Virus record (IMG/VR): IMGVR_UViG_3300017732_000010 | Coordinates: 1-49,984 of that record | DNA length: 49,984 nucleotides | Origin: a virus | Reading direction: 5' to 3' (one strand) | Shown here: positions 24,501-47,152 of the stretch, piece by piece | Numbering within the stretch: the stretch's first letter is position 1 | Layout: every line of letters starts with the position of its first letter | Notes under the pieces: generated by a model | The model's input: the letters and a program-made list of their open reading frames with translations, nothing else | Told to the model about the DNA's origin: nothing | Databases searched by the model: none | Position numbers and translations under genes: made by a program

Positions 24501-25128
24501 GAAGAGAATTACTGCTCAGGAGAATATTCAGACTCTGAAACTGACTTATAGTAACACTGATGGTACCGTACTAAAGCAGACATTCCTTGCAGAAGATGAT
24601 GGGTCAGGTCAACCAGATATTGATGCTGCATTGGCATTTAACGATGGTGATATTATCTATAATATCGACTGGCAGTCAGGTGATTCACTTGGATGGATCT
24701 ACGATTCAGGAACTTGGTACAAATTTGGTATGACAGATACTGGACCAATTACTGCACGTAGGTTCAGTGGTGTCACTAACTATGGTATTGGAATGGCACC
24801 TGATGCATCCAATAGAATGAAGATCAGTGGTAACACATTCATTTCTGGTGACTTAGATGTTACTGGTAAGTATGGTTCTGCTGATAAGTATAGACTTGCA
24901 ACAGGTCTTGCTAATGACAATAACGGGGTCACATACAATGGTAACGGGTCAACATCATCCTTTGCTATTTCCCCAGGGCATACCTCTTACTCTGTTCTTG
25001 TATTCTTGAATGGTGTCGCCCAAATCCCAGGTACTGACTATCAAGTTAGCGGCAACGCTGTTGACTTCTCAATCGGTACTCCACCCTCAACTGGTGATGT
25101 GGTCCAGATCAGGGAACTAGTCATCTAA
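21553..25128 (+). CDS. Large tail-fibre or baseplate-associated structural protein
   Basis: A 1191-residue protein starting MALTRLKNIITSRTGRIIYV. Residues 15-60 (IIYVNPDDFDASDAYDNRGN and RPFKTLQRAFLEVS) match the opening of pectate-lyase-like right-handed beta-helix proteins (YVNP...G....P..TLQ.A), a fold common in phage tail spikes. The middle is beta-helix-like; the C-terminus (SSFAISPGHTSYSVLVFLNG and QVSGNAVDFSIGTPP) resembles a fibre tip domain. Likely a long, trimeric tail component. It has its own late promoter. Confidence 0.65.
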   Translation: MALTRLKNIITSRTGRIIYVNPDDFDASDAYDNRGNSALRPFKTLQRAFLEVSRFSYRVGLSNDEFDAFSIYLYPSEYVLDNRPGTSNFNEITPFDENTNFDLTSPNNILYKFNSVNGGIIVPRGCSVVGSDLRRTKIIPKYVPYPTINASLGITGANEPGASAIFRLTGGTYFWQMSFFDGDNNGVYYRGDVADTIAPNFSHHKITCFEYATILDLDLYYQKISKAYATIPDTSGTIAQDQLQARVEENRIVGPISDEFRVSQIIRNGQTATAFTVDIQDNPSNHGFSVGVAVNISGVTGPTETDSNLYNGSFLVTSAQGNQFTYQMSAEPSGNAIGSNVLVKVEIDTVDSASPYVFNCSLRSVWGICGMHADGSLATGFKSMVVAQFTGISLQKDDRAFVLYNPSTGNYEAQASGSGAHINGLCKYRKGWRHVHIKASNDAFIQVVSVFAVGFGDHFFSDSGGDLSITNSNSNFGNTSLRSKGFKSASFTKDKAGQITHVIPPKDISDVAEISINWVTFDINKIRAAADPTKLYLYGYTNETGKPPSKIQGYTIGARRDSPTLPDKINVLLIASGANSPTTHTAKIDPSGGDVTGTSPGDDNSPIKWDANQSNWYLQVDSNQNDIYTTLIANSQYQNLGFTPTSFIRRVPDARDLKDRIYRFRYVLDKDAFPIPRQPITGFVVQPRSSETNSPAYDKTYYIYEVEVYQVFERGLKDGIYYLTFLNASVAPSTSNFDDFAFSQQTVDLYPAFDRDNPVADPGPAISVADNDILGVVTTTDGATPTPNENTKLSITKETTQFFLLEQENNLGYNTTSNTLNSIVVTGRLGDEEERKIPLKLNADNSVAPILCELRRYSILRASGHTFEYLGFGPGNYSTAFPSTQVEVLSPAQVRLSQSLKEAAGVAYYSGVNSDGELFVGNQVINPVTGQITNEDIAQLNVLGEEGTTIETFSEIVLTDKLTVIGGASNQLESVFSGPVTFQKRITAQENIQTLKLTYSNTDGTVLKQTFLAEDDGSGQPDIDAALAFNDGDIIYNIDWQSGDSLGWIYDSGTWYKFGMTDTGPITARRFSGVTNYGIGMAPDASNRMKISGNTFISGDLDVTGKYGSADKYRLATGLANDNNGVTYNGNGSTSSFAISPGHTSYSVLVFLNGVAQIPGTDYQVSGNAVDFSIGTPPSTGDVVQIRELVI

Positions 25129-25152: not shown

Positions 25153-26019
25153 ATGTCAACAAAGATTAATGGTAATCAGATACAAGCGACAACTAGAGGT
25201 CTAGTTGAAGCGTGGTCTATTTCCGAACAAATAAATTTACCGCCACTTAACCAATCACAGGTCAATGCCCTCGGCACACCTGCATTTGGTACTGTCATCT
25301 ACAATACGACAGAAGATATGGCACAGATCTACAAACAGGATGCCGCACAAGGCAACCCTGGGTGGTCTGATGTTGGTGGGGGTGGTCCTGCTATTGGTGA
25401 AGGTTCTATCATTAGAACTAACGGTACAAATATTGGAGAGAACTTAACTGTCGGTCCTACTGCAAACGGCGGTGTAGAGTTCACAAACGGATTTTCAGCA
25501 GGTCCAATTCAAATTAACTCAGGTTATACTGTTACTATTGAGAATGGTGCATCTTGGACACTACTTGGTGACGATGACCTGTCATACGCTGAATTTGTTG
25601 ATATTGAATCACAACACGCTACATTCACTGGTACACTTCATTATGGTGAAACAAAAGAGCAGGTTTACTATTACACATCAAGTGGTTCTATAACTCACGA
25701 TTATAATAATTCAAACTCAATCTGGATCAACAAAACTGGTGGTAGTAATTTCACTATCAGTTTTACTAACGTTCCTACTGATGGTGCACACGCATATGGT
25801 ATGACTGTTGCTATCAAAAACCAAGGTGGTGAGGGTATTCCCACATCAGTTAACGTTAACGGACAGTCAACAACTATATACTGGTCAGGTGGTGCTGAAC
25901 CAAGTTGGGGTGAAGATGATACTTATGTTGTTGTCTCATTTGCATTGGTCTACACACCTAACACTGCTCAGCAATCATTCACTATATTTGGTTCTTCTAC
26001 TGGATATTATCAAGCATAA
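25153..26019 (+). CDS. Tail-fibre protein
   Basis: A 288-residue protein: N-terminal MSTKINGNQIQATTRG, then NQSQVNALGTPAFGTVIYNTT, as in cyanophage fibre N-termini, and a beta-rich C-terminus with Gly and Ser. It starts the run of short fibre genes behind a late promoter. No receptor-binding domain can be named. Confidence 0.6.
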   Translation: MSTKINGNQIQATTRGLVEAWSISEQINLPPLNQSQVNALGTPAFGTVIYNTTEDMAQIYKQDAAQGNPGWSDVGGGGPAIGEGSIIRTNGTNIGENLTVGPTANGGVEFTNGFSAGPIQINSGYTVTIENGASWTLLGDDDLSYAEFVDIESQHATFTGTLHYGETKEQVYYYTSSGSITHDYNNSNSIWINKTGGSNFTISFTNVPTDGAHAYGMTVAIKNQGGEGIPTSVNVNGQSTTIYWSGGAEPSWGEDDTYVVVSFALVYTPNTAQQSFTIFGSSTGYYQA

Positions 26020-26021
26020 TT

Positions 26022-27002
26022 ATGTCTACTAACATTGGTTATTCTGGGATGTTCAGTCCCTTGTCTTCCTCTTTGGCATCACGTGGTGGAGGAGCAGGTG
26101 GCGGTAGTGCTGCTAGAATTATTGCTCAAGATAACGGAACAGTTTTTGACCAAGCATATGAAGGTCTGAACTTCAGATTCCATAGATTTACAAGTACAGG
26201 AGATAATAGTCTATACATTGATGCAGGTGCAGGTGCAACTCTATACGCTTGGTTGTGGGGTGCTGCAGGCGGTGCAGGTGGACAAGGTGGAGCAGGTGGT
26301 GGAGCAGGCGGTATGTCATATAGTGAGATTACAGTACAGGCAGATTGGATCGCTCAAGGTGGAAGAATGAGAGTTTACGTCGGCGGTGGCGGCGGCGGTG
26401 GATCAGGTTGCTACGGATGTTGGGGTGGCGGCGGTAATGGTACCAATGGATCAGGTTATGGTTCAGGCGGTCGTGGCACCAACGCATCTTGTAGTGGATG
26501 TTCAGCAGGTGGTGGTGGAGGAGGAGCAGCAACTATGCTCTTCACACCATTGGGCGTAAGTATGGATAGTACACACATTCTCGCAGTCGCAGCAGGCGGC
26601 GGTGGTGGTGGAGGTCGTGAAGGTTGCTCTGGAGCAGGTTCTGGTGGAGCAGGTGGACAAAGAGGAGCAAACGGACAGTGCGGTTCACAGGGTGGAGCAA
26701 TGGGTGGTAACGGTGATACCAACGGTGATGAGTGTGGCAGACCAGGGAACGATTCTTCTGGTGGAGGCGGCGGTGGCGGCGGTTACAACGCTGGACAGTG
26801 TGGTGGAAACCCTAGTTGTGATTGTAATGGTGCTGCTGGTGGAGGTGGAGGTGCATCTTGGATTTCTTCTCCATACCACATCGGTGGTTCCATAAGTAAT
26901 GGTGACTGGGGAACCCCAGGGGACACTTCTTCTCAATTCAGACAAGGATATGCCCAACCTAATGGTGGACAAGGTATAGGAACTCTTGGTTATTTGATCT
27001 AA
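26022..27002 (+). CDS. Glycine-rich, cysteine-containing tail adhesin
   Basis: A 326-residue protein that is strongly Gly-rich (long GGG runs from about residue 80 on), with at least ten Cys, several in pairs (GCYGC, SCSGC, SCDC). Gly-rich loops of this kind form polyglycine sandwiches in T-even and S16-type gp38 adhesins, which contact the receptor. The Cys pairs are unusual for a fibre and could form disulphides or bind metal. It sits three bases after the previous fibre gene. Confidence 0.6.
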   Translation: MSTNIGYSGMFSPLSSSLASRGGGAGGGSAARIIAQDNGTVFDQAYEGLNFRFHRFTSTGDNSLYIDAGAGATLYAWLWGAAGGAGGQGGAGGGAGGMSYSEITVQADWIAQGGRMRVYVGGGGGGGSGCYGCWGGGGNGTNGSGYGSGGRGTNASCSGCSAGGGGGGAATMLFTPLGVSMDSTHILAVAAGGGGGGGREGCSGAGSGGAGGQRGANGQCGSQGGAMGGNGDTNGDECGRPGNDSSGGGGGGGGYNAGQCGGNPSCDCNGAAGGGGGASWISSPYHIGGSISNGDWGTPGDTSSQFRQGYAQPNGGQGIGTLGYLI

Positions 27003-27004
27003 TT

Positions 27005-27538
27005 ATGGCAACAACTAACGACCCAAAGACAGTAGACGACGGTTACCAAAATTTTAACGTCGCTACAGCAGTTTTCGATATAGGCGAAAACACAACTATT
27101 GGTGGTGGATTTTCGACTCTAAAGTCAAAAGACGTAACCATTAAGATGAGTGTAAGAAAGTTTGGAGAGTACAAACTGAAATGGGATAACGGTTTAAGAA
27201 TCGGTATTTCAGTTTCAAAACCAGATGGTACACAGGTCTTCACACAACAACTTGATAACATTTTATCGAGTGACTCTAAATATCAGTTGACAGCATCATT
27301 ACCTGCTTTAACTCCTGAAGTTAAATACGCAGTTCAAATGTGGGCAGGTGATAATGAGAAATCTCTAATACATAGAGAGGATATTACGATCCCCGATTAC
27401 GAGGATCCATCCGCTCAAAGAGTCAATCCTGAAGGTACAGTTGTGTACCACGACGGATACTATCCCGATGACGCACAGTGGGCAGCAGATCAACCTTATC
27501 TGCCTGCAGGTTTCACACGCCCTGTGCCACCTACATAA
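27005..27538 (+). CDS. Hypothetical fibre-cluster structural protein
   Basis: A 177-residue protein of mostly beta character with a Tyr/Asp/Pro-rich C-terminus (DGYYPDDAQWAADQPYLPAG). The middle (YKLKWDNGLRIGISVSK) could be an immunoglobulin-like fold. Between two Gly-rich fibre genes and coupled to the first. Function unknown. Confidence 0.5.
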   Translation: MATTNDPKTVDDGYQNFNVATAVFDIGENTTIGGGFSTLKSKDVTIKMSVRKFGEYKLKWDNGLRIGISVSKPDGTQVFTQQLDNILSSDSKYQLTASLPALTPEVKYAVQMWAGDNEKSLIHREDITIPDYEDPSAQRVNPEGTVVYHDGYYPDDAQWAADQPYLPAGFTRPVPPT

Positions 27539-27540
27539 TG

Positions 27541-27548
27541 TATAAATA
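27541..27548 (+). promoter_or_regulatory. Late promoter box (TATAAATA)
   Basis: Perfect TATAAATA, 27 bases before ATG 27576. The next genes through 37223 have no other late box that I can see, so the halogenase-oxygenase block may depend on this one. Confidence 0.65.
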
Positions 27549-27575
27549 CATCAGAGGAAATTTTAACAGGAAAAA

Positions 27576-28376
27576 ATGAGCACACTCAAAGTTGCATCTA
27601 TTAGAGACCTGTCTGGCATTGGTGGTTTTACCCTCGCATCTGGTAATATTACTGCTAATGGTACGCTGACTGTTAGTAACTTGACCGTTAATGGTACGAT
27701 GTCAGGTTCATCTAGTCAGATCGTGCCTAGTGTCTCAGGTCAATCAGGTAAGTTTCTTACCACGAACGGATCGTCAATGTCTTGGACAGACGTAAGTTCA
27801 GAAAACATCAGTTCTATGCAAATCTGGACTGGTAACGGTACTTGGAATAGACCAAGTGGCGTAAAATATATTCACGTTCGCTGTCAAGGTGGCGGTGGTG
27901 GAGGTGCTGGTCACGGTGAATCAGGCGGTGCAGGAGGTTACTCCGAACGTGTGATGTCAGTTGCCAACATTTCATCAGTCGGTATTACGATTGGTGGTGG
28001 CGGTGGAGGTACTTGGTATTTCAACCGTGGTGGTGATGGAGGATCATCTTCATTCGGTCCTTATATGTCAGCAGGTGGTGGACACGGTGCTGCACGTAAT
28101 AACTCACACTCAGGTGGACTAGGACGAGAAGGTTCTGGTGGAGACCTGAATATCTGGGGTGGTGGTGGACAGTCCCACGCTGCTCACGGTGGTGGAACTG
28201 GTGGACCTTCTCACTTCGGTGGATCGGTTGCTGCTGGTTGGCCAAATGGTGGAAACTTCAGTCATAACCACCAAGATCACTCAGCATATGGTTCAGGTGG
28301 TTCAGGTGGTCACTTCCACTCTTTCCGTGGTTCAAACGGTAAGTATGGTGTTGTTACTGTTATCAACTACAAGTAA
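27576..28376 (+). CDS. Tail-fibre protein with Gly- and His-rich tip
   Basis: A 266-residue protein. N-terminus MSTLKVASIRDLSGIGGFTL and GKFLTTNGSSMSW are cyanophage fibre signatures. The C-terminal 160 residues are Gly-rich with many His (SHAAHGGGTGGPSHFGG, SHNHQDH), which suggests a metal-binding or receptor-contacting tip. It is the last fibre gene before the modifying-enzyme block. Confidence 0.65.
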   Translation: MSTLKVASIRDLSGIGGFTLASGNITANGTLTVSNLTVNGTMSGSSSQIVPSVSGQSGKFLTTNGSSMSWTDVSSENISSMQIWTGNGTWNRPSGVKYIHVRCQGGGGGGAGHGESGGAGGYSERVMSVANISSVGITIGGGGGGTWYFNRGGDGGSSSFGPYMSAGGGHGAARNNSHSGGLGREGSGGDLNIWGGGGQSHAAHGGGTGGPSHFGGSVAAGWPNGGNFSHNHQDHSAYGSGGSGGHFHSFRGSNGKYGVVTVINYK

Positions 28377-28385
28377 GGGGTCACT

Positions 28386-28904
28386 ATGAAAAAAGCATTA
28401 ATGGATTTTACAGGTTACGTTGCTGACGTAGTAGAACCTGGGGAAGAATATGCATTATTCTTAGGTCGTGGTTGCTCACAGATGTGGGTAAATGCACCTG
28501 ATGATATTACAAATGTGTGGACTCTTGAATGGTCACCTTCGGCAGAAGATATGACTTGGGTTAAGAGAACTGAAACATATGCAGACCCTGCAACAACTCG
28601 CAGAGTGGCATATGGTGAGGTAGGGGCACAATTAGATATGCTCTACAAAGACCTTGCAGCAGGCAGAGCATTGACAGCAGAGGATGCTCTTTGGTATAAT
28701 CACGTGAAGACAGTTAAAGACAATACGACACAACCTTCATCAGTTGAGGAACCAATGGATCCTACAATGACTGAGGAAGAGATCGCTGAGTTTATGTCTG
28801 ACGCTGTAGAGCCTGGAGTCGGAAGACCCTGTAAACTATCATCGAAAGAACAACCTTGTTGGGAGAGATATTCTAACTGGGGAAGAACCTACGAAGAACT
28901 TTAA
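28386..28904 (+). CDS. Fibre-cluster protein, possible fibre assembly factor
   Basis: A 172-residue acidic protein. Residues 74-95 (RVAYGEVGAQLDMLYKDLAA) follow the YxxxGxQLDxLxxD pattern seen in small proteins encoded after phage fibres. The C-terminus contains GVGRPCKLSSKEQPCWERYS with two Cys. It may help fold or attach fibres, but this is inference from pattern and position. An AAGGGG Shine-Dalgarno precedes it. Confidence 0.5.
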   Translation: MKKALMDFTGYVADVVEPGEEYALFLGRGCSQMWVNAPDDITNVWTLEWSPSAEDMTWVKRTETYADPATTRRVAYGEVGAQLDMLYKDLAAGRALTAEDALWYNHVKTVKDNTTQPSSVEEPMDPTMTEEEIAEFMSDAVEPGVGRPCKLSSKEQPCWERYSNWGRTYEEL

Positions 28905-28913
28905 CTTTTTGGT

Positions 28914-30404
28914 ATGCAACTACATAAAATCTGTATTGTCGGTGGCGGCAGTGCAGGGTGGATGACTGCTAGTGTACTAGCGAAACATTTTGGTAATACA
29001 AAAGAGATTGTGTTGATCGAATCTCCTACAAAACCTAGAATTGGTGTAGGGGAAGCGACAACGCAATTTTTTAATACTTTTATTAGGTATCTGGGATTGG
29101 AAGATTCCGACTGGATGCCTAAATGTGATGCCACATACAAACATAGCGTACGGTTTGAGAACTTTAATCCAAAAGGTCCATTCCATTATCCATTTGGGAA
29201 GACAGAGGGACCTGCATCGGTTGCTGACTACTACACTTGGAGAAAGATCGGAAAAGTTGACAGTATGACTTGGGGTCTGATATATTCAGATACAGTCCGT
29301 AGTTCAGAAAATGGGAAACTCATTCCTGATCTCACTCACTTCAATGTCGGTTACCATTTCGACGCTATTTCCTTTGCAGAATATCTAAAACACAACTATG
29401 CAATTCCTAAAGGTATTAGACTCATTGAAGATACAGTCGTCTCGATTGAATCCAGCGTGGACGGGATTAGCGGAGTTTGCCTTTCTGGTGGCGATCGGTA
29501 CGATGCAGACCTTTTTATAGACTGTACAGGATTTGATGCAATTCTCAGCAATGAGGTAGGAAGTACGTGGGAAGCGTGGAATTCAGATATTAATGGTACA
29601 GATGAGTTGATGTGTGACTCAGCGTGGACAACGAGAATACCATATAAAGACAAAGCAAAAGAGTTAGTTGCATACACAAACTGCACAGGAATGAGCAGTG
29701 GATGGGTATGGAGAGCACCCACGTGGTCACGAATTGGCACGGGTTATGTATTCTCATCCCGTCATCAATCGAAAGAGGATGCATTAACAGAATTCAAACA
29801 GCATTTAGGTGTAGGTGATGATCAAGAGTTTAGATTCCTTAAGTTCCCTACAGGTGTAAGAAAGGAGATATGGAAAAAGAATGTGGTATCTATTGGATTG
29901 GCAGGTGGTTTCATTGAACCACTAGAATCAGGTGGATTATATTCAGTTCACGAGTTCTTATTTAATCTGATACAGGTTCTTCCTAGAGAGATTGACTATT
30001 ACAATGGTTTCATAAGAGAACAGTTCAACTGGGGATCGAAGAGGAGACTACAGTCATTCAAGGATTTTGTACTAGCACATTACTGTTTGAGTCCTAGGAG
30101 TGACACACCATTCTGGAAACATTATAATCAGATGAACTTCCAATCGGAGTTCCCTGATGTATTGACACAAAGATTTGAACAGATCGGAAACCTCAATTAT
30201 CTATCCGAGGGTGCTCTCTACTTGCTAGGTGGGTACGAATATGATATAATTCCTGATAGGTTCGATGTTATTGCCAGACACGATGGTTACGAATCACCCG
30301 ACTTTGATGATATGTTTATGGATCATTTAACCAAGCAAGATCCAGACTATCCAACCCCTTTGGAGTATTATCAATCTACCCTATATAAGAAAGAAGAATC
30401 TTAA
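28914..30404 (+). CDS. Flavin-dependent halogenase homologue, first copy
   Basis: A 496-residue protein of the tryptophan-halogenase family. Visible: FAD site GGGSAGWMTA (residues 10-19), GVGEAT (44-49), Lys76 in ATYKHSVRF corresponding to the catalytic lysine of PrnA, WVWRAP (264-269) in place of the usual WxWxIP, and EPLES with Glu338-Ser339, matching the active-site Glu. The I-to-A change in WxWxIP, and Gly in place of Thr after LES, make activity uncertain. FADH2 must be supplied by a reductase not seen here. It directly follows the fibre genes and is paired with a second copy. Confidence 0.8.
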   Translation: MQLHKICIVGGGSAGWMTASVLAKHFGNTKEIVLIESPTKPRIGVGEATTQFFNTFIRYLGLEDSDWMPKCDATYKHSVRFENFNPKGPFHYPFGKTEGPASVADYYTWRKIGKVDSMTWGLIYSDTVRSSENGKLIPDLTHFNVGYHFDAISFAEYLKHNYAIPKGIRLIEDTVVSIESSVDGISGVCLSGGDRYDADLFIDCTGFDAILSNEVGSTWEAWNSDINGTDELMCDSAWTTRIPYKDKAKELVAYTNCTGMSSGWVWRAPTWSRIGTGYVFSSRHQSKEDALTEFKQHLGVGDDQEFRFLKFPTGVRKEIWKKNVVSIGLAGGFIEPLESGGLYSVHEFLFNLIQVLPREIDYYNGFIREQFNWGSKRRLQSFKDFVLAHYCLSPRSDTPFWKHYNQMNFQSEFPDVLTQRFEQIGNLNYLSEGALYLLGGYEYDIIPDRFDVIARHDGYESPDFDDMFMDHLTKQDPDYPTPLEYYQSTLYKKEES

Positions 30405-30406
30405 TT

Positions 30407-32059
30407 ATGCAAGTTAACAATGTTGTGATTGTTGGTGGTGGATCATCTGGATGGATGACTGCAGCAGCACTCTTGAAACTGTGCCCTTGGATCAGCGTTG
30501 TACTGGTCGAATCTAAGAAGTATAAACCAGTCGGAGTTGGTGAATCAACTATTGGACAGTTTAATAAGTATTTGCGAGCACTCGGTCTTAAAGATGTAGA
30601 TTGGATGCCTAAGGTAGGAGCAACATATAAGAACAGTATTCAATTTACAGACTTTCGTGAAGTAGGATCTACATTTCAGTATCCATTTGGACCTGCAGAT
30701 CTATATAATTGTAAGAACGATATTCAAGATTTCTTTGATCTTCAAAGACTATATCCTGATGAGTTCCCGCCAGAGTTATTTGCTAAGTATTACTTGGCAG
30801 GCAATACCTGTATGGCAGAACATAACAAAGAATACGATAACAAAGATGGGAGAATTAGGGATTTTGATTTTGCTAGTGATACTGCCTACCATATTGATGC
30901 TGACAGATTCGGCGAATACTTAAAGACTGATGTATGTTATCCGTTCGCTGAACAGGATAGATTCACACACATCACAGGTGATGTACGAGGAATGGTCAAA
31001 GATGTTACTGCAGGTGGATCACCATCTCAAAGTAACAGAGTCATCAAACAACTAGCAGTAAAACTAGACGCAGATAAGAAAACTATCGGAGTACAGGGAG
31101 ATCTGTTCATTGATTGCACAGGATTTAAGGGTGCACTCATTGAGGATATGATGTCTGTACGTCATATTAGTTTCGAGAAGTATCTACCAAACGACAAAGC
31201 ATTCTTCGCTCGTATTCCTTACCAGAATCAGAAACAACGTGAGGAAAAGATGCACAACGTGACAGACTGTCGCGGTGCAAATACTGGTTGGATGTGGACT
31301 ATTCCATTGTGGGATAGAATCGGAGTTGGATACTGTTGGTCATCACGTTTTGCTATGGAAACAGAAGCAAGACAGGAATTCGAAATTTGGATTGAACAAG
31401 AGTTTGATCTGGAACCAGAAGAATATGAAATCCAACTAATTGATATTAAGCACGGATATAGAGAGAAAGCGTGGGAGTTGAATTGTGTAGCAATCGGGAT
31501 GTCATATGGTTTCATCGAACCATTAGAATCCACTGGTCTGTTGACAACTCACGAGAATATCCTTAGACTGGTTGATGTTCTCAATCGTCGTCAGGGTTAT
31601 GTGTCAGGTATTGAGCGTCAATGGTTCAATTATGCTGCACAACGTGAGGTCATTGGATTCAGTCATTTCGTAGCAATGCACTATGCATTAAGCAAACGAA
31701 CTGATAATCCATACTGGAGACACGCATCACAAAGATGTGAGTATATGCTCGAACAGTTTGATGGTAACATCAAGGTGAACGATGAGTATGAGAGGATGGG
31801 AGATATTCTAGATCTTGGTAGACCACTCAGAGCAAACGTTGCAGGTATGAATTTCATCGCTGCAGGTATGGGACTGAGATTGGGAACTAGGTTCAATGGA
31901 TATGGAAACGTTGAAGAACTCACTCACGTTGGAAATGAGCGTCTAGATTACATTAAAGAGGTTGAGGAATTCGTCAAGTCAGATGAAGTTCCAACACATT
32001 ATGAATTCTTACTTGAAAACATTTATGGTGAAGACAATGTTCAACTTCCTGAGGAATAA
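30407..32059 (+). CDS. Flavin-dependent halogenase homologue, second copy
   Basis: A 550-residue protein, three bases after the first halogenase. Motifs are more complete: GGGSSGWMTA (10-19), GVGEST (43-48), Lys75 in ATYKNSIQF, WMWTIP (295-300, full WxWxIP), and Glu374-Ser375 in EPLEST. About 54 residues longer than the first copy, with an extra stretch near residues 95-150. Family members chlorinate or brominate Trp or peptide-bound substrates; the substrate here is unknown. The 3' end overlaps the next gene. Confidence 0.85.
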   Translation: MQVNNVVIVGGGSSGWMTAAALLKLCPWISVVLVESKKYKPVGVGESTIGQFNKYLRALGLKDVDWMPKVGATYKNSIQFTDFREVGSTFQYPFGPADLYNCKNDIQDFFDLQRLYPDEFPPELFAKYYLAGNTCMAEHNKEYDNKDGRIRDFDFASDTAYHIDADRFGEYLKTDVCYPFAEQDRFTHITGDVRGMVKDVTAGGSPSQSNRVIKQLAVKLDADKKTIGVQGDLFIDCTGFKGALIEDMMSVRHISFEKYLPNDKAFFARIPYQNQKQREEKMHNVTDCRGANTGWMWTIPLWDRIGVGYCWSSRFAMETEARQEFEIWIEQEFDLEPEEYEIQLIDIKHGYREKAWELNCVAIGMSYGFIEPLESTGLLTTHENILRLVDVLNRRQGYVSGIERQWFNYAAQREVIGFSHFVAMHYALSKRTDNPYWRHASQRCEYMLEQFDGNIKVNDEYERMGDILDLGRPLRANVAGMNFIAAGMGLRLGTRFNGYGNVEELTHVGNERLDYIKEVEEFVKSDEVPTHYEFLLENIYGEDNVQLPEE

Positions 32060-32822
32060 GAAAAAGAAACCTTGGTTGCGATTCTTCTCTCTAGAACCAG
32101 GGTTAGTCGAGAATTATCCTTTGATACCAACGAGTTCCGTGAGAAGACGTTGGCAATCTAAGGAAGAGCGAAATAAGAAATGCCCCTTTCGGGGTAATAT
32201 GAATGTGGCAAATTGCCCAGGTCTGAAACAGATCACTCGTATGGGTTATGTTGTAGTAGCACCAATGGATTTCATCATTCGTACAAACGGTGATGGAGTT
32301 GGTTATGAGTATGAGATTCCTACAATGTTCACGAGACACGCGAATTTTGTTGGTGATCATCCACCAGACCAAACTGTACCCTTGGTAGACAGTCCACGTG
32401 AATCACTTGCACACATTATCAAACTTGAAACACCGTGGAGAGTGAGAGCAAGTGATGATATTATTTTTCTGCAGACACCCGTTTACTGGAACAATGAGTC
32501 CCGTTTCGAAGCAACTGCAGGGATCTATGATCCAAGATTTGCTATGCAAGTTAACGTGCAACTTATCTGGCACGTTCTAGATGGTGAAACTCTAGTTAAG
32601 GCAGGGACACCACTAGCACAATTCATACCAATGCCAAGAGAAACACTTGACAAGAGTTGGTATGATATTCGTATAGATAATGCAACGACTGAAGATTGGG
32701 ATCTAGAAAATGCTTTCAATTACTCATTGAAGGCAGAGTATCCTAACGATGACGATGTATCGCACAAAGTCGCTCGTGCTATGAGAGCGATCAAACACCA
32801 CAGCAACGGAATTGACCGATGA
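32037..32822 (+). CDS. Unnamed-family protein, first of two paralogues
   Basis: A 261-residue protein from ATG 32037 (MFNFLRNKKKKPWLRFF), which overlaps the halogenase end by 23 bases; a longer ATG frame exists upstream but lies deeper inside the halogenase. It has CPG near residue 58, PMDFIIRTNGDG, TPWRVRASDDIIFLQTPVYW, and GTPLAQFIPMPRE near residue 205. The second copy (33844) has matching blocks. I think this may be the family called DUF6065, from memory and unchecked. Pairing with halogenases suggests a linked role. Confidence 0.55.
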   Translation: MFNFLRNKKKKPWLRFFSLEPGLVENYPLIPTSSVRRRWQSKEERNKKCPFRGNMNVANCPGLKQITRMGYVVVAPMDFIIRTNGDGVGYEYEIPTMFTRHANFVGDHPPDQTVPLVDSPRESLAHIIKLETPWRVRASDDIIFLQTPVYWNNESRFEATAGIYDPRFAMQVNVQLIWHVLDGETLVKAGTPLAQFIPMPRETLDKSWYDIRIDNATTEDWDLENAFNYSLKAEYPNDDDVSHKVARAMRAIKHHSNGIDR

Positions 32823-33142
32823 GTCTTACACTTGATGAATTGATCCAAAACTTCCATCTTCAAAAGGGGGAAGTTGATAAAATTATTGACAACTACGATA
32901 CAGAGTTCTCTAACAAGAAACTGAATCCATACGGTGTCACCACAGTTGAGTTTCAAAAGAGATCTGATGCATATGCTCAGAGATCTAGATTGGAGGGTGC
33001 TATCGATGCACTCTTTATTGTGAAACGTGATATAATGGGTGATGAAACAGATGTCAATATGCCTATGGCAGAAATTGATGCTGCAGATCCAGAAATGGAA
33101 ATTATTGGTAATGTATCAGAGGAAAATGAAACGGAGGAGTAA
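32819..33142 (+). CDS. Hypothetical protein
   Basis: A 107-residue acidic protein (MSLTLDELIQNFHLQKGEVD), with a coiled-coil-like N-terminal half and a Met/Asp/Glu-rich end. It overlaps the previous stop (ATGAG). Function unknown. Confidence 0.55.
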   Translation: MSLTLDELIQNFHLQKGEVDKIIDNYDTEFSNKKLNPYGVTTVEFQKRSDAYAQRSRLEGAIDALFIVKRDIMGDETDVNMPMAEIDAADPEMEIIGNVSEENETEE

Positions 33143-33144
33143 CA

Positions 33145-33312
33145 ATGTCTAAATCGTACCACGTCTATTACAATGGTAAAGTTTTATTCAAAGACTTGAA
33201 CCAAGAAGAATTCGATGTAGTATGGGGAAGAATTTACCATTCGTATCATACAGATAGCATTTCGATGGAATGCCTTTCAGAAAACTTAGAGGAGTGTGAA
33301 CAGAGTTACTAA
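33145..33312 (+). CDS. Small hypothetical protein
   Basis: A 55-residue ORF, MSKSYHVYYNGKVLFKDLNQ, then two Cys near the C-terminus. GGAGGAG lies just upstream, and its TAA overlaps the next ATG as TAATG, coupling it to an oxygenase. It was too short to be obvious; the RBS and coupling support it. Confidence 0.6.
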   Translation: MSKSYHVYYNGKVLFKDLNQEEFDVVWGRIYHSYHTDSISMECLSENLEECEQSY

Positions 33313-33854
33313 TGCGAGTTATTCGTAATGTGATCCCTGCTGTATATCAGAAGAGGATCAAACAAATGATGTTAGATGTTGGATTTCCTTGGGGTTACCT
33401 TGAGGATGTCACATACAGAGATACTGATGAAGTGCGAAACCGATTTCCAAATGCAAATGGAACTCAGGGGTTCGCACATTTGTTTTTCGATGCAGAAACA
33501 AATACTCACTCAGAGTTTTGTAACATCATAATGCCACTACTGTTTTCATTCGTAGAGACACACGAGTACAATCTGTTTAGGATCAAGGGTGGACTATTGT
33601 TACCACAAGGTGAACTAAAGTCACCACATAATATGCCACACGTGGATATGAACAGACCACACACTACTGCACTATATTATGTGAACTCAGCAGACGGTGA
33701 AACTGTATTTTTCGATGAAGAAGACAATGAAATAAGGAGAGAGAAACCAGAGGCAGGTAAAGTCATTATTTTTGATGGTTCTATTTACCACGCATCGCAG
33801 AATCCCACACAGTCTACAAACAGAATTACACTAAATTTTAATTATGAGCATTGA
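33312..33854 (+). CDS. Fe(II)/2-oxoglutarate oxygenase A
   Basis: A 180-residue oxygenase. Iron ligands visible: His110 and Asp112 (PHVDM) and His160 (SIYHAS); Arg171 (NRITLNF) is the 2-oxoglutarate contact. The strand ALYYVNSADGETVFF and turn PEAGKVIIFDG are classic. It may hydroxylate a proline or other side chain of a protein or small molecule; the substrate is unknown. First of five consecutive oxygenase genes (one interrupted by the paralogue at 33844). Confidence 0.85.
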   Translation: MRVIRNVIPAVYQKRIKQMMLDVGFPWGYLEDVTYRDTDEVRNRFPNANGTQGFAHLFFDAETNTHSEFCNIIMPLLFSFVETHEYNLFRIKGGLLLPQGELKSPHNMPHVDMNRPHTTALYYVNSADGETVFFDEEDNEIRREKPEAGKVIIFDGSIYHASQNPTQSTNRITLNFNYEH

Positions 33855-34560
33855 GATCTTTTACTACCAGTATGACGGTGGTCAAGACATTCTAAACTGT
33901 TGGGATTCACCTCTAAGTTTGGATGGTATTGGTATTGAACCCAAGAAAGTTATTGATGAGTACGAAGGAAACAAATTCGTACCATATATGCAATGTCCTG
34001 CTTGGACACATAAGAACTCACGTGAGTTTATTATGTACAATCCGAAGGACTTGACAATCGTAATCAACAAGGAAGGATATATTACAGTAAAAGAATTGAA
34101 TGATCAGCAGATTCAGAAATATTTGAAGGTAGAAGATTTAGAACCACCTATCAAGACTCTACAGATTTCAGTACCACAATTATTGTTGTGGACAAAATCG
34201 AAAGGTGTATGGGTAGAAGCAAGAGATTATCCCTTGACAAGTAGAAACAATAACTTTACAATAGTAAACGGTTGGTTCAATCTATCTGATTGGTGCCGAC
34301 CTATATCTTTCGGTATCAATGTATGTGATTCTGAACAGGATGTAAAGATTAAACGCGGTGACCCAATTTATAAATTCGCTTTCTATAAAGAAGGAGATCT
34401 ACGAGAGTCATTCAAGTTAACCAAATCAGTACCACCACAGGAAATGTTACTGCAGATGCATAAACGTCTGGCAGTAAAACAATTCACACCGTTCCTTGCT
34501 AAAGATATTATCTTTGGTGAGAAAGAAAAGAAATGCCCTTTCCCTTGGTTTAGAAAATGA
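33844..34560 (+). CDS. Unnamed-family protein, second of two paralogues
   Basis: A 238-residue protein overlapping oxygenase A by 11 bases. Blocks shared with the protein at 32037: a CPA motif, NPKDLTIVINKEGY, GVWVEARDYP, and GDPIYKFAFYKEG. The conserved C-terminus ends KEKKCPFPWFRK. The interleaving of this family with halogenases and oxygenases argues for joint function; the biochemical role is unknown. Confidence 0.55.
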   Translation: MSIEIFYYQYDGGQDILNCWDSPLSLDGIGIEPKKVIDEYEGNKFVPYMQCPAWTHKNSREFIMYNPKDLTIVINKEGYITVKELNDQQIQKYLKVEDLEPPIKTLQISVPQLLLWTKSKGVWVEARDYPLTSRNNNFTIVNGWFNLSDWCRPISFGINVCDSEQDVKIKRGDPIYKFAFYKEGDLRESFKLTKSVPPQEMLLQMHKRLAVKQFTPFLAKDIIFGEKEKKCPFPWFRK

Positions 34561-35222
34561 AGTTTGTAGAAGAGTATTGCCCAACCATAGTAATCGATAA
34601 TTTTTTCGAGACACCATCGTTGGTCGTTAACTTAGCGAAACAGCAACAGTATTTTCGGTGCTATGATCACCCCAACAAGGGCAATTGGCCTGGGATGAGG
34701 TCGAATCTTCTTGACGGAGTTGATCCTATCCTACACGAAATCATATGCAGAAAGGTTATAGCATATCTACCGTCTTTCGTCGCATTTGATATTGCTGATG
34801 TTGCATTTCACGTGTGTGATGGTAACAACAAACGTGGATGGATTCATTCAGACCCACCACACTTAGGTGTCGGTATGGTTATCTATTTGAATGATGGAGT
34901 TGTACCTGATCGTGGTACAACCATCTACGATGTGCCACCACATTTTAAGGGACAAGGTTTCGAAGATGAATTCAAGAAACAATTACTTGCTCAGGATGAT
35001 ACTGAATCGGCAGCAGCATATGATACCTATAGAGAAGAATGTAATGCGATGTATCAAACATCAATTAGTGTTGAAAGTCGATACAATCGTTGCTTACTAT
35101 TTGATGGTAGAAAGTTTCACGGTGGTATGGATTTCTTCGGAAAAGATGTACACGATTCTCGCCTAACTATAGTAGGTTTCTTCCACGGAATCGCTGATGA
35201 TCTTATAAACAACAAACATTAA
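34557..35222 (+). CDS. Fe(II)/2-oxoglutarate oxygenase B
   Basis: A 221-residue oxygenase: His97 and Asp99 (WIHSDPPH), His188 (RKFHGG), Arg202 (DSRLTIVGFF), and the strand VGMVIYLND before GTTIYD. It overlaps the previous gene as ATGA. It carries a longer insertion (about residues 125-165) than oxygenase A, so it likely acts on a different substrate or position. Confidence 0.8.
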   Translation: MKFVEEYCPTIVIDNFFETPSLVVNLAKQQQYFRCYDHPNKGNWPGMRSNLLDGVDPILHEIICRKVIAYLPSFVAFDIADVAFHVCDGNNKRGWIHSDPPHLGVGMVIYLNDGVVPDRGTTIYDVPPHFKGQGFEDEFKKQLLAQDDTESAAAYDTYREECNAMYQTSISVESRYNRCLLFDGRKFHGGMDFFGKDVHDSRLTIVGFFHGIADDLINNKH

Positions 35223-35876
35223 ATGGAAGTGATTATTGACGAGAAAATCGAAGAATTTGCCAACGGTAAACTTTGGCGAATTCGTAATGCATTATCACAG
35301 GAAACTTGTGAACATTTGAAGCACGAATTCATTATGATTAAAAACATAATTGAAGCGACAACTTCAGGTCCCACAAGCGATCCCATAATGCCAGGTGCCT
35401 TTGCAATGTACTCACCAGTATGTTTTGAAGCAATGGGACAGGTAATTAAGAAACAGATTGAGGACGTGGTTAGATGTAAATTATGGCAGACATTTAGTTA
35501 CGCTAGAGTATATACTAAAGGCACGAATCTGGTACGACATAGAGACAGAACGAGTGGTGAATGGGTAGGAAATATATGTGTAACAAGAGACGAAACTAAT
35601 TGGCCCTTTTACATCGAAATTGATGGTAAATCGTATGACCTACTGATGAATCAAGGTGATATGATTGTATTCAGAGGACATAAAGATTTTCATTGGAGAC
35701 CAAAATATCAGGGAGATCTACAGATACAGGCATTTGTATCTTATGTGGATCAAGATGGTAGATACTCTGACAATAAATGGGACGGTCGTCCGATGTTGGC
35801 AGCACCTTGGGAAACAGCAAGTGAGAAAATCCAGAATGAACAATCAATGATCAACACATCACCCTATTACACATAA
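35223..35876 (+). CDS. Fe(II)/2-oxoglutarate oxygenase C
   Basis: A 217-residue oxygenase: His106-Arg-Asp108 (VRHRDR), His157 (FHWRPK), and a C-terminal strand LQIQAFVSYVD. The Arg/Lys expected on the last strand to hold 2-oxoglutarate is not obvious, as in other members of this subfamily with HWRxP and a QxFxxYV strand. It starts right after oxygenase B and ends TAATG with oxygenase D. Confidence 0.75.
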   Translation: MEVIIDEKIEEFANGKLWRIRNALSQETCEHLKHEFIMIKNIIEATTSGPTSDPIMPGAFAMYSPVCFEAMGQVIKKQIEDVVRCKLWQTFSYARVYTKGTNLVRHRDRTSGEWVGNICVTRDETNWPFYIEIDGKSYDLLMNQGDMIVFRGHKDFHWRPKYQGDLQIQAFVSYVDQDGRYSDNKWDGRPMLAAPWETASEKIQNEQSMINTSPYYT

Positions 35877-36565
35877 TGAAACTGACAGTCAGCAATCCAT
35901 TTGACACAGCATATAAGAAACTAGATGATGTAATCGTCTTTGAGGATATAATCCCACCAGTATATCAAGACTGGTTACTCTTATGTGCAAACAATCCAGA
36001 TCTTGCTTGGTATCGTAAGGACAATGCAATCACGGACATCCCCGAGTTTATTGGTGACCCTCGCAATGGGTTCGCTAACTTACATTATTTGTATGAAATT
36101 GAGTACGGTGACAAATCACATTGCTCAACACTTACAAATGGGTTTATGCCGCTCGCTCTTCAGTTCCGTGAAGCATTGAGTGCTGAATGTTTGCTACGGA
36201 TGAGAATCAATGCAGTTCCTGCAATGGGATGCAATCAAGTTCAAATGCCACACATTGATAGTTACGTTCCTAACTCTTGGAATGTAATCTACTATCTAAA
36301 TGATACTGACGGTGATACAATCATCTACAATGAGAGGACTCAGGATGCCTTTGAATACCCTGCAATGGTTGACAAGGACGCTTGGACTGAAAAGCAGCGA
36401 ATCACCCCTAAGAAGGGCAGAGCGGTTGCTTTCAAGGGTGATCTATTTCACAGTTCATCCTACTCAACACTCAATCCACGTTTAGTGGTAAATATAAATG
36501 TGAGTGAGAAAACACCCACAGACATTCGTTCCTCATACAATCCTAATTATGGCAACCTTACTTGA
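35876..36565 (+). CDS. Fe(II)/2-oxoglutarate oxygenase D
   Basis: A 229-residue oxygenase: His126 and Asp128 (PHIDSY), His192 (LFHSSS), Arg202 (NPRLVVNINV), with NVIYYLNDTDGDTIIY between. It overlaps both neighbours (TAATG upstream, 17 bases downstream). Complete catalytic set. Confidence 0.85.
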   Translation: MKLTVSNPFDTAYKKLDDVIVFEDIIPPVYQDWLLLCANNPDLAWYRKDNAITDIPEFIGDPRNGFANLHYLYEIEYGDKSHCSTLTNGFMPLALQFREALSAECLLRMRINAVPAMGCNQVQMPHIDSYVPNSWNVIYYLNDTDGDTIIYNERTQDAFEYPAMVDKDAWTEKQRITPKKGRAVAFKGDLFHSSSYSTLNPRLVVNINVSEKTPTDIRSSYNPNYGNLT

Positions 36566-37223
36566 AACTGGAGAGGATTGGACTCTCTGGAGATCACCCT
36601 GTATCGTCCACGAACAGGATGAAATGATCACACAATTGGGAAGAGCATATCGTCTCTTCAAAAATACTTTTACAGGATTCGATTCATCGCTGACTGATAA
36701 AGGATTGACAATCGGAAATCTTCCTACTCTATTCGATTATGATGAAAAACGCAAGGAAGATGAGGATTTTATCAAGAATTGGGGCAAAAACCAGCATTCT
36801 GGGTATCGGTTCTATAACATATTCGCACTTACGTCCCCGAGTCCGCTATTCTGGTTATTGAACAGAGATCTTCAAACTATTGTGCGAAGCACTCTTGAAA
36901 CTGATGAACCATTATGGTTTCAATGTTGGATGAACTACCACACACCCGATCAGGTGTTAAAGTGGCACGATCACAAATTTGATTACCACGGTTATATTAG
37001 TATCGAACCACACAACACTACAACCGAGTTCAGACAAGACGGTAAACCACTCTACAATATAAAGAATGAAGTGGGCAATGTGTACTTTGGGCCTGGGTGG
37101 GACAGGCAACACAGAGTTGTAGTTCACGAGGAATTTAACACACCTCGTATTACTTTAGGGTTCGATATTCATACTCAGTCAGATTTACCTGACGATCAGT
37201 TCTCACTTATTCCACTATTGTAA
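36549..37223 (+). CDS. Fe(II)/2-oxoglutarate oxygenase E, HxH variant
   Basis: A 224-residue protein from ATG 36549 (MATLLETGEDWTLWRS); the upstream in-frame ATG overlaps oxygenase D more deeply. The first metal motif is WHDHKFDYHGY (His140, Asp141, His142), HxH rather than HxD. His188-Arg189 (RQHRVVVH) and PRITLGFDI follow. I treat it as a divergent oxygenase; whether the metal site is complete is uncertain. Confidence 0.6.
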   Translation: MATLLETGEDWTLWRSPCIVHEQDEMITQLGRAYRLFKNTFTGFDSSLTDKGLTIGNLPTLFDYDEKRKEDEDFIKNWGKNQHSGYRFYNIFALTSPSPLFWLLNRDLQTIVRSTLETDEPLWFQCWMNYHTPDQVLKWHDHKFDYHGYISIEPHNTTTEFRQDGKPLYNIKNEVGNVYFGPGWDRQHRVVVHEEFNTPRITLGFDIHTQSDLPDDQFSLIPLL

Positions 37224-37227
37224 ATAG
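37221..37227 (+). promoter_or_regulatory. Late-type promoter box (GTAAATA)
   Basis: GTAAATA overlaps the stop of oxygenase E, 24 bases before ATG 37252. Confidence 0.45.
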
Positions 37228-37251
37228 TATATACGTTCGCTTGGGGGAGCG

Positions 37252-37434
37252 ATGTTCTTAAAAACCAGAATGCTTAACAACACACAGCAGTCAGTTTTAC
37301 GCAAAGCGATACTGTTGTACATTTCGTCTCTACATAAGAGACATCACAATGGACAAATCAATGACATCACATTAAGCGAAACACTTAATGAGGTGAATTT
37401 GATTACTGATTTATTACATTTGAAACAGGATTAA
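37252..37434 (+). CDS. Small hypothetical protein
   Basis: A 60-residue basic helical protein (MFLKTRMLNNTQQSVLRKAI). It ends TAATG with the next gene. No function known. Confidence 0.55.
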   Translation: MFLKTRMLNNTQQSVLRKAILLYISSLHKRHHNGQINDITLSETLNEVNLITDLLHLKQD

Positions 37435-37763
37435 TGTCAACACCTTTATTCATTTCGGAGTCTATCCCATTGGAAATTAGAAACGTACTCAAATCTCTTG
37501 AAATTGGTATGCCTGCACGGTATAAGGATTTCACAGGTACAATCGAATTTGTATCAGAAGAGTATATTACTCTCTGTATTTCAGAGAAACCCAATCCAGA
37601 AGGATCAAGACATCCTATGAATAAATGTTGTTTACTGGTGTATTCACGTGATTGGGATGATCTAGAAATAGATGATTCTCCCTTTAAAAATGTAAAGAAT
37701 TACAAGGGAAAAACCAATGACCACCCAGGAAATGAGATGTTACCACCGATCGAAGACCGATGA
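37434..37763 (+). CDS. Conserved cyanophage protein
   Basis: A 109-residue protein with an SH3-like beta pattern (MPARYKDFTGTIEFVSEEYITLCI) and CCLLVYSRDWDDL. Recurrent in cyanophages in my recollection. It is coupled to both neighbours. Function unknown. Confidence 0.6.
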   Translation: MSTPLFISESIPLEIRNVLKSLEIGMPARYKDFTGTIEFVSEEYITLCISEKPNPEGSRHPMNKCCLLVYSRDWDDLEIDDSPFKNVKNYKGKTNDHPGNEMLPPIEDR

Positions 37764-37903
37764 AACACAGTAATTACGATGAAAATATGTATGAGGAGAT
37801 TTTAATTTATTACGCACACGACAAACCAAAATCTGCTACAATACAGGAACACACCGATCAATGCCAGAAATTCACAAATGAACAGTCTCGCACTCTCACC
37901 TAA
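37760..37903 (+). CDS. Small hypothetical protein
   Basis: A 47-residue ORF starting ATGA over the previous stop: MKHSNYDENMYEEILIYYAH. Acidic and Tyr-rich at the N-terminus. It overlaps the next gene by 26 bases. Unrecognised. Confidence 0.5.
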   Translation: MKHSNYDENMYEEILIYYAHDKPKSATIQEHTDQCQKFTNEQSRTLT

Positions 37904-38054
37904 AGAACTGCTAGGATGTATGTCAGCAATGCAAATGCTTGATGACAAGTCACAACAGAACTGGGAATCACTTCTCGGTATCAAATATAATGATCTCTAT
38001 CAAAAATTAGAAAATGCCCTTGAGGAAATTGGTGAAGGTCACACCGAAATCTGA
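37878..38054 (+). CDS. Small helical protein
   Basis: A 58-residue ORF: MNSLALSPKELLGCMSAMQM, then a helix ending ENALEEIGEGHTEI. Overlaps both neighbours. Unrecognised. Confidence 0.55.
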   Translation: MNSLALSPKELLGCMSAMQMLDDKSQQNWESLLGIKYNDLYQKLENALEEIGEGHTEI

Positions 38055-46507: not shown

Positions 46508-47152
46508 ATGCATAATCCTAAAGAACTATCGGACGATTTCGAATCCATCGCACAGACTAACGTCTATGGGTTGTTTATGTCCCCTGTAGGTAATTATACC
46601 AATAAAAACCACGAAAGGGATAAACTTGCAATTACGAGTTATATTAATAGTTGCACAAATGATGACTTATTTCAATCCCCTAATAGCGATATATGCCACG
46701 GTGTGACGCAAATCGGGAAAAATAACATCCTAGACCATCCAACACTTAAGGACGTAAGAGAGACCATTTTAGATGCAGTTAAGCAGGTTAATGAACAATC
46801 TCTTAATTATGACTTATCAAGTATGGAATTAATCGATTCACATATTGAAGTCGCATCACAAAACGCCCTATACGCACCTCACGAGTTTTCTAATTGTTTA
46901 TACTCAGGATGCTATTTCATTAACTATGACCCACAAAAGCATTCGCCTCTTAAGTTTAAACGTATTACACAGTCATCCTATTATCCAATTATGCAATGTA
47001 AGCAAAATGGTCTAACCGCGTTTAATCTATTAGATGCAAACGTACCCACTACTGAAGGAGATATTATCATTTTCCCCAGTAACCTAACTCACGGATATGA
47101 AATCAATGGAGAACATAACCGTATTACTCTATCCTTTAATGTAGCACCTTAA
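46508..47152 (+). CDS. 2-oxoglutarate oxygenase-like protein, one iron ligand missing
   Basis: A 214-residue protein. The C-terminal half follows the PF13759/TIGR02466 pattern: His125 in APHEFSNCLYSGCYFINYD, then TEGDIIIFPSNLTHGYEING with His195, and NRITLSFNV with Arg205. Where HxH is expected, residue 127 is Phe, so one of three iron ligands is missing and the protein may be inactive or use another residue. It has its own strong promoter and is followed by an HNH gene, and may have come in as a unit. Confidence 0.6.
   Translation: MHNPKELSDDFESIAQTNVYGLFMSPVGNYTNKNHERDKLAITSYINSCTNDDLFQSPNSDICHGVTQIGKNNILDHPTLKDVRETILDAVKQVNEQSLNYDLSSMELIDSHIEVASQNALYAPHEFSNCLYSGCYFINYDPQKHSPLKFKRITQSSYYPIMQCKQNGLTAFNLLDANVPTTEGDIIIFPSNLTHGYEINGEHNRITLSFNVAP

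Follow-up and report, generated by a model that had tools for sequence, protein, structure and literature searches.

A cyanophage cassette of halogenases and 2-oxoglutarate oxygenases that tracks glycine-rich receptor-binding tips and may modify them

Halogenases and 2-oxoglutarate (2OG)/Fe(II) oxygenases of cyanophages have so far been counted among the auxiliary metabolic genes, and the roles guessed for them include antibiotic protection and 2-oxoglutarate signalling. The window, which is the whole 49,984-base virus record IMGVR_UViG_3300017732_000010, carries a cassette of such genes behind its glycine-rich tail-fibre genes and raises the question of what these enzymes act on. The original prediction, drawn from the DNA alone, was that the cassette could modify the adhesin tips post-translationally or could make a small compound. 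Here we report that the enzyme genes track the glycine-rich tips across cyanophages, and we propose from sequence comparison that, on balance, they probably modify these receptor-binding tips.

The source virus is, by its sequence, a T4-like cyanophage, since a 181,945-base contig with a fibre-connector protein identical to that of the window carries a photosynthetic reaction-centre gene (PF00124), since the tail genes of the window match phage hub-lysozyme and fibre families, and since its fibre cluster is syntenic with that of the T4-like cyanophage syn9. Megablast of positions 28000-38000 of the window against the named phages returned no match.

Linkage of the enzyme genes to glycine-rich tips

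The fibre, tip and enzyme genes of the window lie in one series on the + strand (Table 1), and the stop/start layout of the cassette is as the original prediction had described it, with two halogenase homologues and five 2OG-type enzymes. The cassette had been placed right after two glycine-rich fibre genes. It does lie in the same stretch, with open reading frames (ORFs) as described, but a gene for a protein of 172 amino acids (aa) intervenes before halogenase 1, a 177-aa gene separates the Gly/Cys-rich gene from the Gly/His-rich gene, and a 107-aa gene lies within the cassette. No + strand terminator-like site is listed at 26061-29344, which agrees with the claim that no terminator stands between tips and enzymes; such sites in the region number 15 against 9.7 by chance (standard deviation 3.4), not clearly in excess.

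A cassette behind the fibres was also found in the named phages syn9, S-RIM44, P-TIM40, Sf-FR1, S-CREM1, Sf-FP1, S-WAM1, S-SZBM1 and P-RSM6. In the first six, the order is fibre, Gly-rich tips, 172-aa gene, halogenase(s), unnamed family and 2OG set, and the last three have a similar order in which tblastn finds no match to the unnamed family. Among 50,697 named records, the His-rich tip occurs in 19 (about ten phage kinds, duplicates and sister isolates included), and all 19 also carry a VirX1-type halogenase (at least 274 bits; 20 such records in all, with the cut chosen after viewing the list and the next four records, S-B64 and S-H35, each duplicated, at 270 bits). The twentieth such record, Sf-FR1, has three PF21722 domains just upstream of its halogenase. 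The fibre connector alone is present in 278 named records, and in S-SM1 and ACG-2014d, which have it, no halogenase is annotated within the 24 kilobases (kb) examined. The place of the fibre cluster is not fixed, since the window and S-SM1 have it downstream of the hub-lysozyme gene and S-RIM44 has it before gp13.

Comparison of S-RIM44 with Syn1 showed about 96% identity on two sides, up to just inside the large structural gene upstream of the fibre and onwards from the small gene that precedes gp13. Between these conserved flanks the fibre genes align at 65-70%, and the tips, small gene, halogenases and oxygenases of S-RIM44 have no blastn counterpart in Syn1, where one 2OG gene and otherwise different genes occupy that place. 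Between the two phages, the whole block of tips, chaperone-like gene and enzymes differs as a unit.

For the uncultured viruses in IMG/VR, the best 80 relatives were kept per scan, of 206, at least 597, 255, at least 593, 131, at least 596 and at least 599 confirmed relatives. Three sets of loci (fibre, halogenase and a control) were then compared without dereplication, leaving out loci shorter than 8 kb (7/80, 24/80 and 38/80, respectively); the control consists of close relatives of a single gp44 (clamp loader), at 80-94% identity, and a Gly-rich ORF was defined as 35% Gly over 60 residues. Connector-anchored loci of at least 8 kb, which were fetched regardless of enzymes, contain a halogenase in 60 of 73, and the remaining 13 end at most 2.1 kb from the connector gene. 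The gene directly upstream of the first halogenase is the 172-aa gene in 63 of the 65 fibre-anchored loci showing it. A Gly-rich ORF is present in 42 of the 56 halogenase-anchored loci (38 at 40% Gly; 27 at 45%), compared with 0 of 42 gp44 control loci (0 of 879 ORFs). Together with the 19 named records, this is a strongly positive answer to the question, put with the original prediction, of whether the enzyme set co-occurs with Gly-rich fibres. 2OG genes alone are not specific, because they are found in 31 of the 42 control loci.

When halogenases were dereplicated, 75 of 91 lay no more than 8 kb from a Gly-rich gene, which was on the same strand in 62 cases and on the opposite one in 13 (the set was built from 80 halogenase-anchored, 13 named and 15 other loci, some picked through fibre genes). 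The cassette is thus not found just as often away from fibre genes, the outcome named beforehand as speaking against tip modification. In the halogenase tree, from which 16 of 107 representatives with too little flank were excluded, well-supported branches force at least six changes of the opposite-strand arrangement. Several kinds of Gly-rich protein, distinct halogenase clades and both orientations all show the association.

Loci close to the S-SM1 tip (43) contain no halogenase, and 36 more distant tip loci contain one in 5. The S-SM1-tip-like loci of at least 7 kb (n = 35) have 0 to 12 2OG-type genes, with five or more in 30. Since S-SM1-type loci hold 2OG batteries without halogenase, the Gly-rich tip with an oxygenase battery is the wider pattern, to which halogenases and a dUTPase-fold protein are added in some lineages.

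Enzymes, tips and their regulation

Both window halogenases match PF04820 (337.5 and 287.1 bits, cut-off 21; E values 1.7e-100 and 3.3e-85) and retain all four motifs, namely GxGxxG for flavin, WxWxxP, and the catalytic Lys and Glu (motif definitions partly from PMC8407142). Among 104 halogenase representatives of at least 430 aa, the Lys motif is present in 84, EPLE in 100 and WxWxxP in 95, and the alignment columns of the catalytic Lys and Glu are invariant across 19 homologues. The nearest solved structure for both enzymes is VirX1 (PDB 6QGM) from cyanophage Syn10 (PMC8407142), of which halogenase 2 is an orthologue (493 bits over 541 residues). Because the second cassette halogenase of syn9 equals VirX1 over 530 aligned residues with the first residue as sole difference, VirX1 belongs to this cassette. 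VirX1 is a trimer with a large and open active site, and among these phage enzymes it is the only one for which halogenation activity is known to us, on many small aromatics in vitro (PMC8407142). The available part of that account describes this small-aromatic work, with a Gly-rich tip neighbourhood and a protein substrate absent from it. Judged by sequence, the enzymes of the cassette look functional. Protein substrates are possible in the flavin superfamily, as the protein cofactor maturases LodB, GoxB and QhpG modify side chains of a partner protein. Halogenase 1 has weak NCBIfam matches to LodB (7.3e-5) and QhpG (1.9e-4), which are far below the family cut-offs and probably reflect the common flavin fold.

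The five oxygenases of the cassette are of the 2OG or 2OG-like type. Those at 33312, 35876 and 34557 score above the cut-offs of their Pfam profiles, and those at 35223 and 36549 have no profile above cut-off and are linked through PHROG families. The iron triad HxD...H is present in four of the five. For 35223-35876 the triad is conserved to at least 99% across 140 family members, and for 33312 and 35876, which belong to broad families, the Asp is conserved to less than 85%. The fifth enzyme (36549-37223; phrog_2696 family) has HxH...H instead, each of whose His is fully conserved (100%) in 92 relatives, and possibly has a different metal chemistry. The PHROG labels 'DNA endonuclease V', 'ferrochelatase' and 'minor coat protein' are misleading here, as they are borne by 2OG-oxygenase-like proteins (window 33312-36565 and named phages). 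Two more 2OG-oxygenase homologues lie outside the cassette, at 46508-47152 and 49198-49767 of the window.

The Gly/His-rich protein is, by its predicted fold, a receptor-binding tip. It scores 28.4 bits against PF21722 (cut-off 24.3), and its model (predicted local distance difference test, pLDDT, 85.3) matches the fibre of cyanophage Pam3 (E 2.3e-8, TM 0.53/0.56), the Bxb1 tail tip, many Gly-rich phage proteins in BFVD and, weakly, the ALK/LTK glycine-rich region; a PDB sequence search with the tip profile found none at E of 0.1 or below. In Pam3, the Gly-rich part of the trimeric fibre recognises the host, and gp24 and gp25 are a fibre-chaperone pair (PMC9608196). The glycine-rich tips probably grip the host cell. 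The window likewise has a small gene, the 172-aa gene, after a tip gene whose predicted fold matches gp24 (PDB 7YPX), and this small gene is, by its position alone, a possible tip chaperone; unlike in the window, no modifying enzymes are mentioned for Pam3 in the available part of PMC9608196. The 172-aa gene was rejected as a sequence homologue of Pam3 gp25, as its profile matched no chaperone in the PDB and found one unrelated chain only. The small gene after the S-SM1 tip was also rejected as its homologue (15-20% identity).

Further observations concern individual tips. The tip of T4 gp37 binds iron via HxH motifs. An HxH-type motif (SHNHQDH) near the end of the Gly/His-rich tip of the window (27576-28376) is present in many relatives and could bind metal. 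In syn9, gp39 (L003:11185-12363) looks tandemly duplicated, with some parts shifted in frame, and may hold a second tip copy in decay or recombination, and the S-CREM1 record has at 54758-55282 a Gly-rich tip frame with five internal TAA stops beside an intact copy. The Gly-rich tip of P-TIM40 (L005:10150-11739) has an extra C-terminal part of about 260 residues that is absent in its neighbours and fibrinogen-like by eye. Virion proteomics of S-CREM1 found 14 proteins, according to the available part of that report.

Tip composition was compared between 83 tips of halogenase-anchored loci and 46 tips of 2OG-anchored loci without halogenase in the available DNA, drawn from L096-L175 and L414-L569. 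One value was taken per 45% cluster (27 vs 19 clusters, 2 mixed), and p values are uncorrected for 20 residues. Tips beside halogenases contain 1.81% His vs 0.47% (p 4e-5), 1.06% Trp vs 0.24% (p 3e-4) and 3.13% Tyr vs 2.23% (p 0.02), while Phe is not raised (2.19% vs 2.53%, p 0.5). The electron-rich rings open to such halogenases are raised in these tips and Phe is not, and the picture is unchanged when the two tip families of the window are excluded. Glu and Arg also differ between the two tip sets (p 1e-3 and 5e-3), and the remaining ORFs of these loci show slight differences in His and Tyr as well. A first composition test was discarded because its halogenase-negative tips came via a Trp-poor bait, and the 2OG-anchored tips replaced them. 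Residue-by-residue coupling between halogenase 1 and the tip in the clade of the window was negative as to a loss of aromatics or His (best column Cys103, uncorrected p 0.0016).

The two sides of the locus also differ in their promoter-like motifs. Early genes of cyanophages are thought to use sigma-70-like promoters (PMC2984593). Where the 172-aa gene meets the first halogenase, 15 of 40 dereplicated junctions have such a promoter (counted at 11/12 or better within 150 bases of the halogenase), and in 13 of these 15 the distance to the halogenase is 49-61 bases; the corresponding counts are 0 of 201 before fibre, connector, tip, 177-aa and 172-aa genes, and 17 of 792 before all remaining + strand genes. 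The late motif ATAAATA (motif basis NATAAATA; PMC2984593), scored within 60 bases upstream, precedes 93 of 179 genes in the pooled group of long fibre, connector, His-rich tip and 172-aa protein, and none of the 22 genes for Gly/Cys tips and 177-aa proteins. It stands before none of 40 first halogenases, before one of 216 genes when the remaining halogenases, the first unnamed family and the 2OG enzymes are taken together, and before 4 of 38 107-aa genes. The window itself has a 12/12 promoter 243 bases upstream of halogenase 1, hence outside the 150-base test. The genes had been described as running together; with this promoter inside the 172-aa gene, that need not equal one transcription unit, and a simple single operon was dropped in view of late motifs on the fibre-side genes and an early-type promoter at the enzymes. 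Tip side and enzyme side look separately regulated, with the boundary between them, and from the placement of these motifs the enzymes are probably made ahead of the tips.

What the enzymes may act on

We favour post-translational finishing of the tips because of the linkage across gene orders and orientations, the block difference between S-RIM44 and Syn1, the retained active sites and the tip composition. In the proposed mechanism, a mobile module would encode the receptor-binding tip, a possible tip chaperone and the tip-finishing enzymes together. The enzyme set would be expressed first, from the early-type promoter; 2OG enzymes would hydroxylate exposed residues as the late tips are translated; VirX1-type halogenases, where present, would halogenate Trp, His and Tyr in the polyglycine loops; and host binding, stability or escape would be altered. 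What the data show are the identities of the genes, their linkage, the block difference, the regulatory split at motif level and the predicted tip fold; that the enzymes are expressed early, that the tip is their substrate, which residue types they alter and what this does to binding are the parts that we infer. A broader statement, on which we are evenly divided, is that this is a widespread viral post-translational module in which hydroxylase batteries and optional halogenases yield halogenated and hydroxylated receptor-binding tips, with the adjacent fibre tip as the native substrate of VirX1.

Phage-encoded enzymes alter virion or adhesin proteins in phage-encoded glycosylation of virion proteins and in fibre tips diversified by diversity-generating retroelements. 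These systems use other chemistry, and to our knowledge have no halogenase or 2OG battery. In the available parts of the literature searched on cyanophage halogenases, phage oxygenases and tail-fibre modification, no link between a halogenase and phage fibres is stated. If tip modification is true, a large set of puzzling marine viral genes would have one role, VirX1 would acquire a native substrate and a virion protein would be halogenated. Host recognition would have a chemical layer invisible to sequence-based host prediction, and chemical diversification of adhesins would be an alternative to sequence diversification.

Several observations weigh against tip modification. Among the 91 dereplicated halogenases, 16 have no nearby Gly-rich gene, and the loci L239, L242, L245 and L228, which we guess to be of freshwater origin, carry, spread over both strands, three halogenases together with the first unnamed family and several 2OG genes, and lack a Gly-rich ORF in the available flanks. 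In S-B64 the halogenase is at 62 kb and the Gly-rich gene at 149 kb of 152 kb, and in S-MbCM6 the halogenase is near psbA with no Gly-rich domain. As to composition, after subtraction of the locus background His stays (p 4e-5), and Trp (0.089) and Tyr (0.11) are not significant; the difference is strong in loci of 34-40% guanine plus cytosine (27 vs 24) and absent in those of 28-34% (20 vs 6). The 6 halogenase-positive tips of the 2OG-anchored set, in a test that set aside 42 tips of uncertain status, showed no Trp excess, and the loss of halogenase 1 in the clade of the window was accompanied by no matching loss of tip aromatics or His. Flavin-dependent halogenases reviewed in PMC8407142 act mostly on small or carrier-bound substrates. 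Expression of the enzymes first would fit a catalyst awaiting its substrate and also early action on the host. The adhesin-modification claim of the original prediction has gained the linkage and a tip composition leaning to halogenatable residues, and has against it the early-type promoter of the enzymes, the 2OG batteries without halogenase and the halogenases without tips.

The alternative that survives best, and which we nevertheless consider unlikely, is that during infection the enzymes make a small halogenated or hydroxylated molecule, such as an antibiotic, a signal or a sugar decoration, and that the site behind the fibres is a shared hot spot. Antibiotic protection has been suggested for the cyanophage halogenase (PMC2984593, PMC9964418), in the older account through prnA (PMC2984593), and altered host metabolites have been suggested as well (PMC10452541). 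For the related cluster of the jumbo cyanophage S-SSM6a, which like the window combines a halogenase with 2OG enzymes, metabolite synthesis or capsule decoration was predicted in 2021; that cluster has carbamoyl transferases, sugar genes and a methylase, and a fibre-tip link is not made in the available part of the paper (PMC7824862). This prediction counts against tip modification, and the in vitro range of VirX1 (PMC8407142) and the early-type promoter at the enzyme set would also suit a small product. The family matches of the window cassette, however, include no scaffold-making gene (non-ribosomal peptide synthetase, polyketide synthase or ligase; the S-SSM7 region differs), and S-SSM7, whose halogenase match is near that of S-SSM6a, has three Gly-rich domains 7-9 kb upstream of its halogenase. 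Moreover, the enzymes track tips at different genomic places and in opposite orientation, and a small molecule behind a hot spot leaves the tip residue bias unexplained.

That bias is equally left unexplained, for His, Trp and Tyr, if the enzymes have an early target on the host, either its surface or the receptor, be it protein or glycan, and co-vary with the tip for that reason, as they might in blocking superinfection by phages that use the same receptor. The sigma-70-like promoter before the enzyme set, the near absence of the late motif there and the linkage to a receptor-binding tip are all in keeping with such action. Nevertheless, cytoplasmic flavin and 2OG enzymes would need to act before export of their target, and up to a dozen 2OG genes seem too many for one receptor, so that we rate this explanation as rather improbable.

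Passive linkage, in which a fibre-swapping recombination module drags along functionally unconnected neighbours, would by itself give a block that differs as a unit, and 2OG genes are common elsewhere, as the gp44 control loci show. It accounts poorly for an association that recurs with several Gly-rich proteins, distinct halogenase clades and both orientations, for a regulatory boundary that falls between tips and enzymes, and for the retained catalytic residues, and it appears quite improbable. Tuning of host 2-oxoglutarate/nitrogen signalling by the 2OG enzymes, as proposed for cyanophages (PMC3037559), is silent on the halogenases and on the linkage to Gly-rich tips, and with oxygenases of several distinct families kept as batteries behind tips it is very improbable indeed.

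Features of the window and the unnamed proteins

Table 1. Features of the fibre, tip and enzyme region of the window, in order of position.
Feature	Position	Strand	Remark
Long tail fibre protein (phrog_529)	21553..25128	+	late-promoter motif ATAAATA at 21519
Fibre-connector protein, used as anchor	25153..26019	+	relatives in 278 named phage records
Gly/Cys-rich tip-like protein (GLY1)	26022..27002	+
177-aa protein between both Gly-rich genes	27005..27538	+	weak HpiC1-like match, below cut-off
Late-promoter-like motif ATAAATA, upstream of His-rich tip gene	27542..27548	+
Gly/His-rich tip protein (GLY2; PF21722, phrog_863)	27576..28376	+	predicted fold resembles cyanophage Pam3 fibre
172-aa gene (phrog_1787)	28386..28904	+	possible chaperone, from position alone
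Sigma-70-like promoter TTGACA-18-TATAAT (12/12)	28671..28700	+	within 172-aa gene, 243 bases upstream of halogenase 1
Flavin-dependent halogenase 1	28914..30404	+	GGGSAG, ATYK, WVWRAP, EPLES present
Flavin-dependent halogenase 2, VirX1 orthologue	30407..32059	+	PF04820, VirX1 match
First unnamed protein (phrog_7084), predicted dUTPase-like fold	~32037..32822	+	start codon inferred
107-aa cassette gene, no assigned function	32819..33142	+
2OG/Fe(II) oxygenase (2OG-FeII_Oxy_3; phrog_274)	33312..33854	+
Second unnamed protein (phrog_17480)	33844..34560	+	probably distant relative of phrog_7084 protein
2OG/Fe(II) oxygenase-like (DUF6445; phrog_1644)	34557..35222	+
2OG/Fe(II) oxygenase-like (phrog_2954)	35223..35876	+	labelled ferrochelatase in phrog_2954
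2OG/Fe(II) oxygenase (2OG-FeII_Oxy_3)	35876..36565	+
2OG-oxygenase relative (phrog_2696)	~36549..37223	+	HxH...H replaces HxD...H
Weak terminator-like hairpin, directly 3' of cassette	37237..37252	+

A dUTPase-like fold is confidently predicted for the first unnamed protein, a statement about fold and not about dUTPase activity. Its model has a pLDDT of 92.1, and all eight Foldseek matches with E of 1e-3 or below are dUTPases (TMt 0.59-0.69). Hints of dUTPase at the sequence level are weak, and GIxDP and AGTPLxQ resemble, by eye, two of the five dUTPase catalytic motifs. dUTPases form trimers. As a speculation, the dUTPase-fold protein could be a trimeric scaffold or recognition part, and the enzymes could dock three-fold on the tips, given the trimers of VirX1, the Pam3 fibre and dUTPases.

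The two unnamed proteins had been described as copies of one family. They are assigned to different PHROGs (phrog_7084 and phrog_17480), and with separate profiles the two proteins of the window do not match each other (E>1). An iterated profile linked both at 5.5e-21, but it may have absorbed the second family. On re-check, the reading as plain copies was weakened, with a link only via intermediates: a clean profile of the first family matches 16 of 56 members of the second (best 6.5e-5), and profile-profile comparison gave P 0.00086 over 35 columns. From these separate-profile and profile-profile results, the two unnamed proteins are probably distant relatives.

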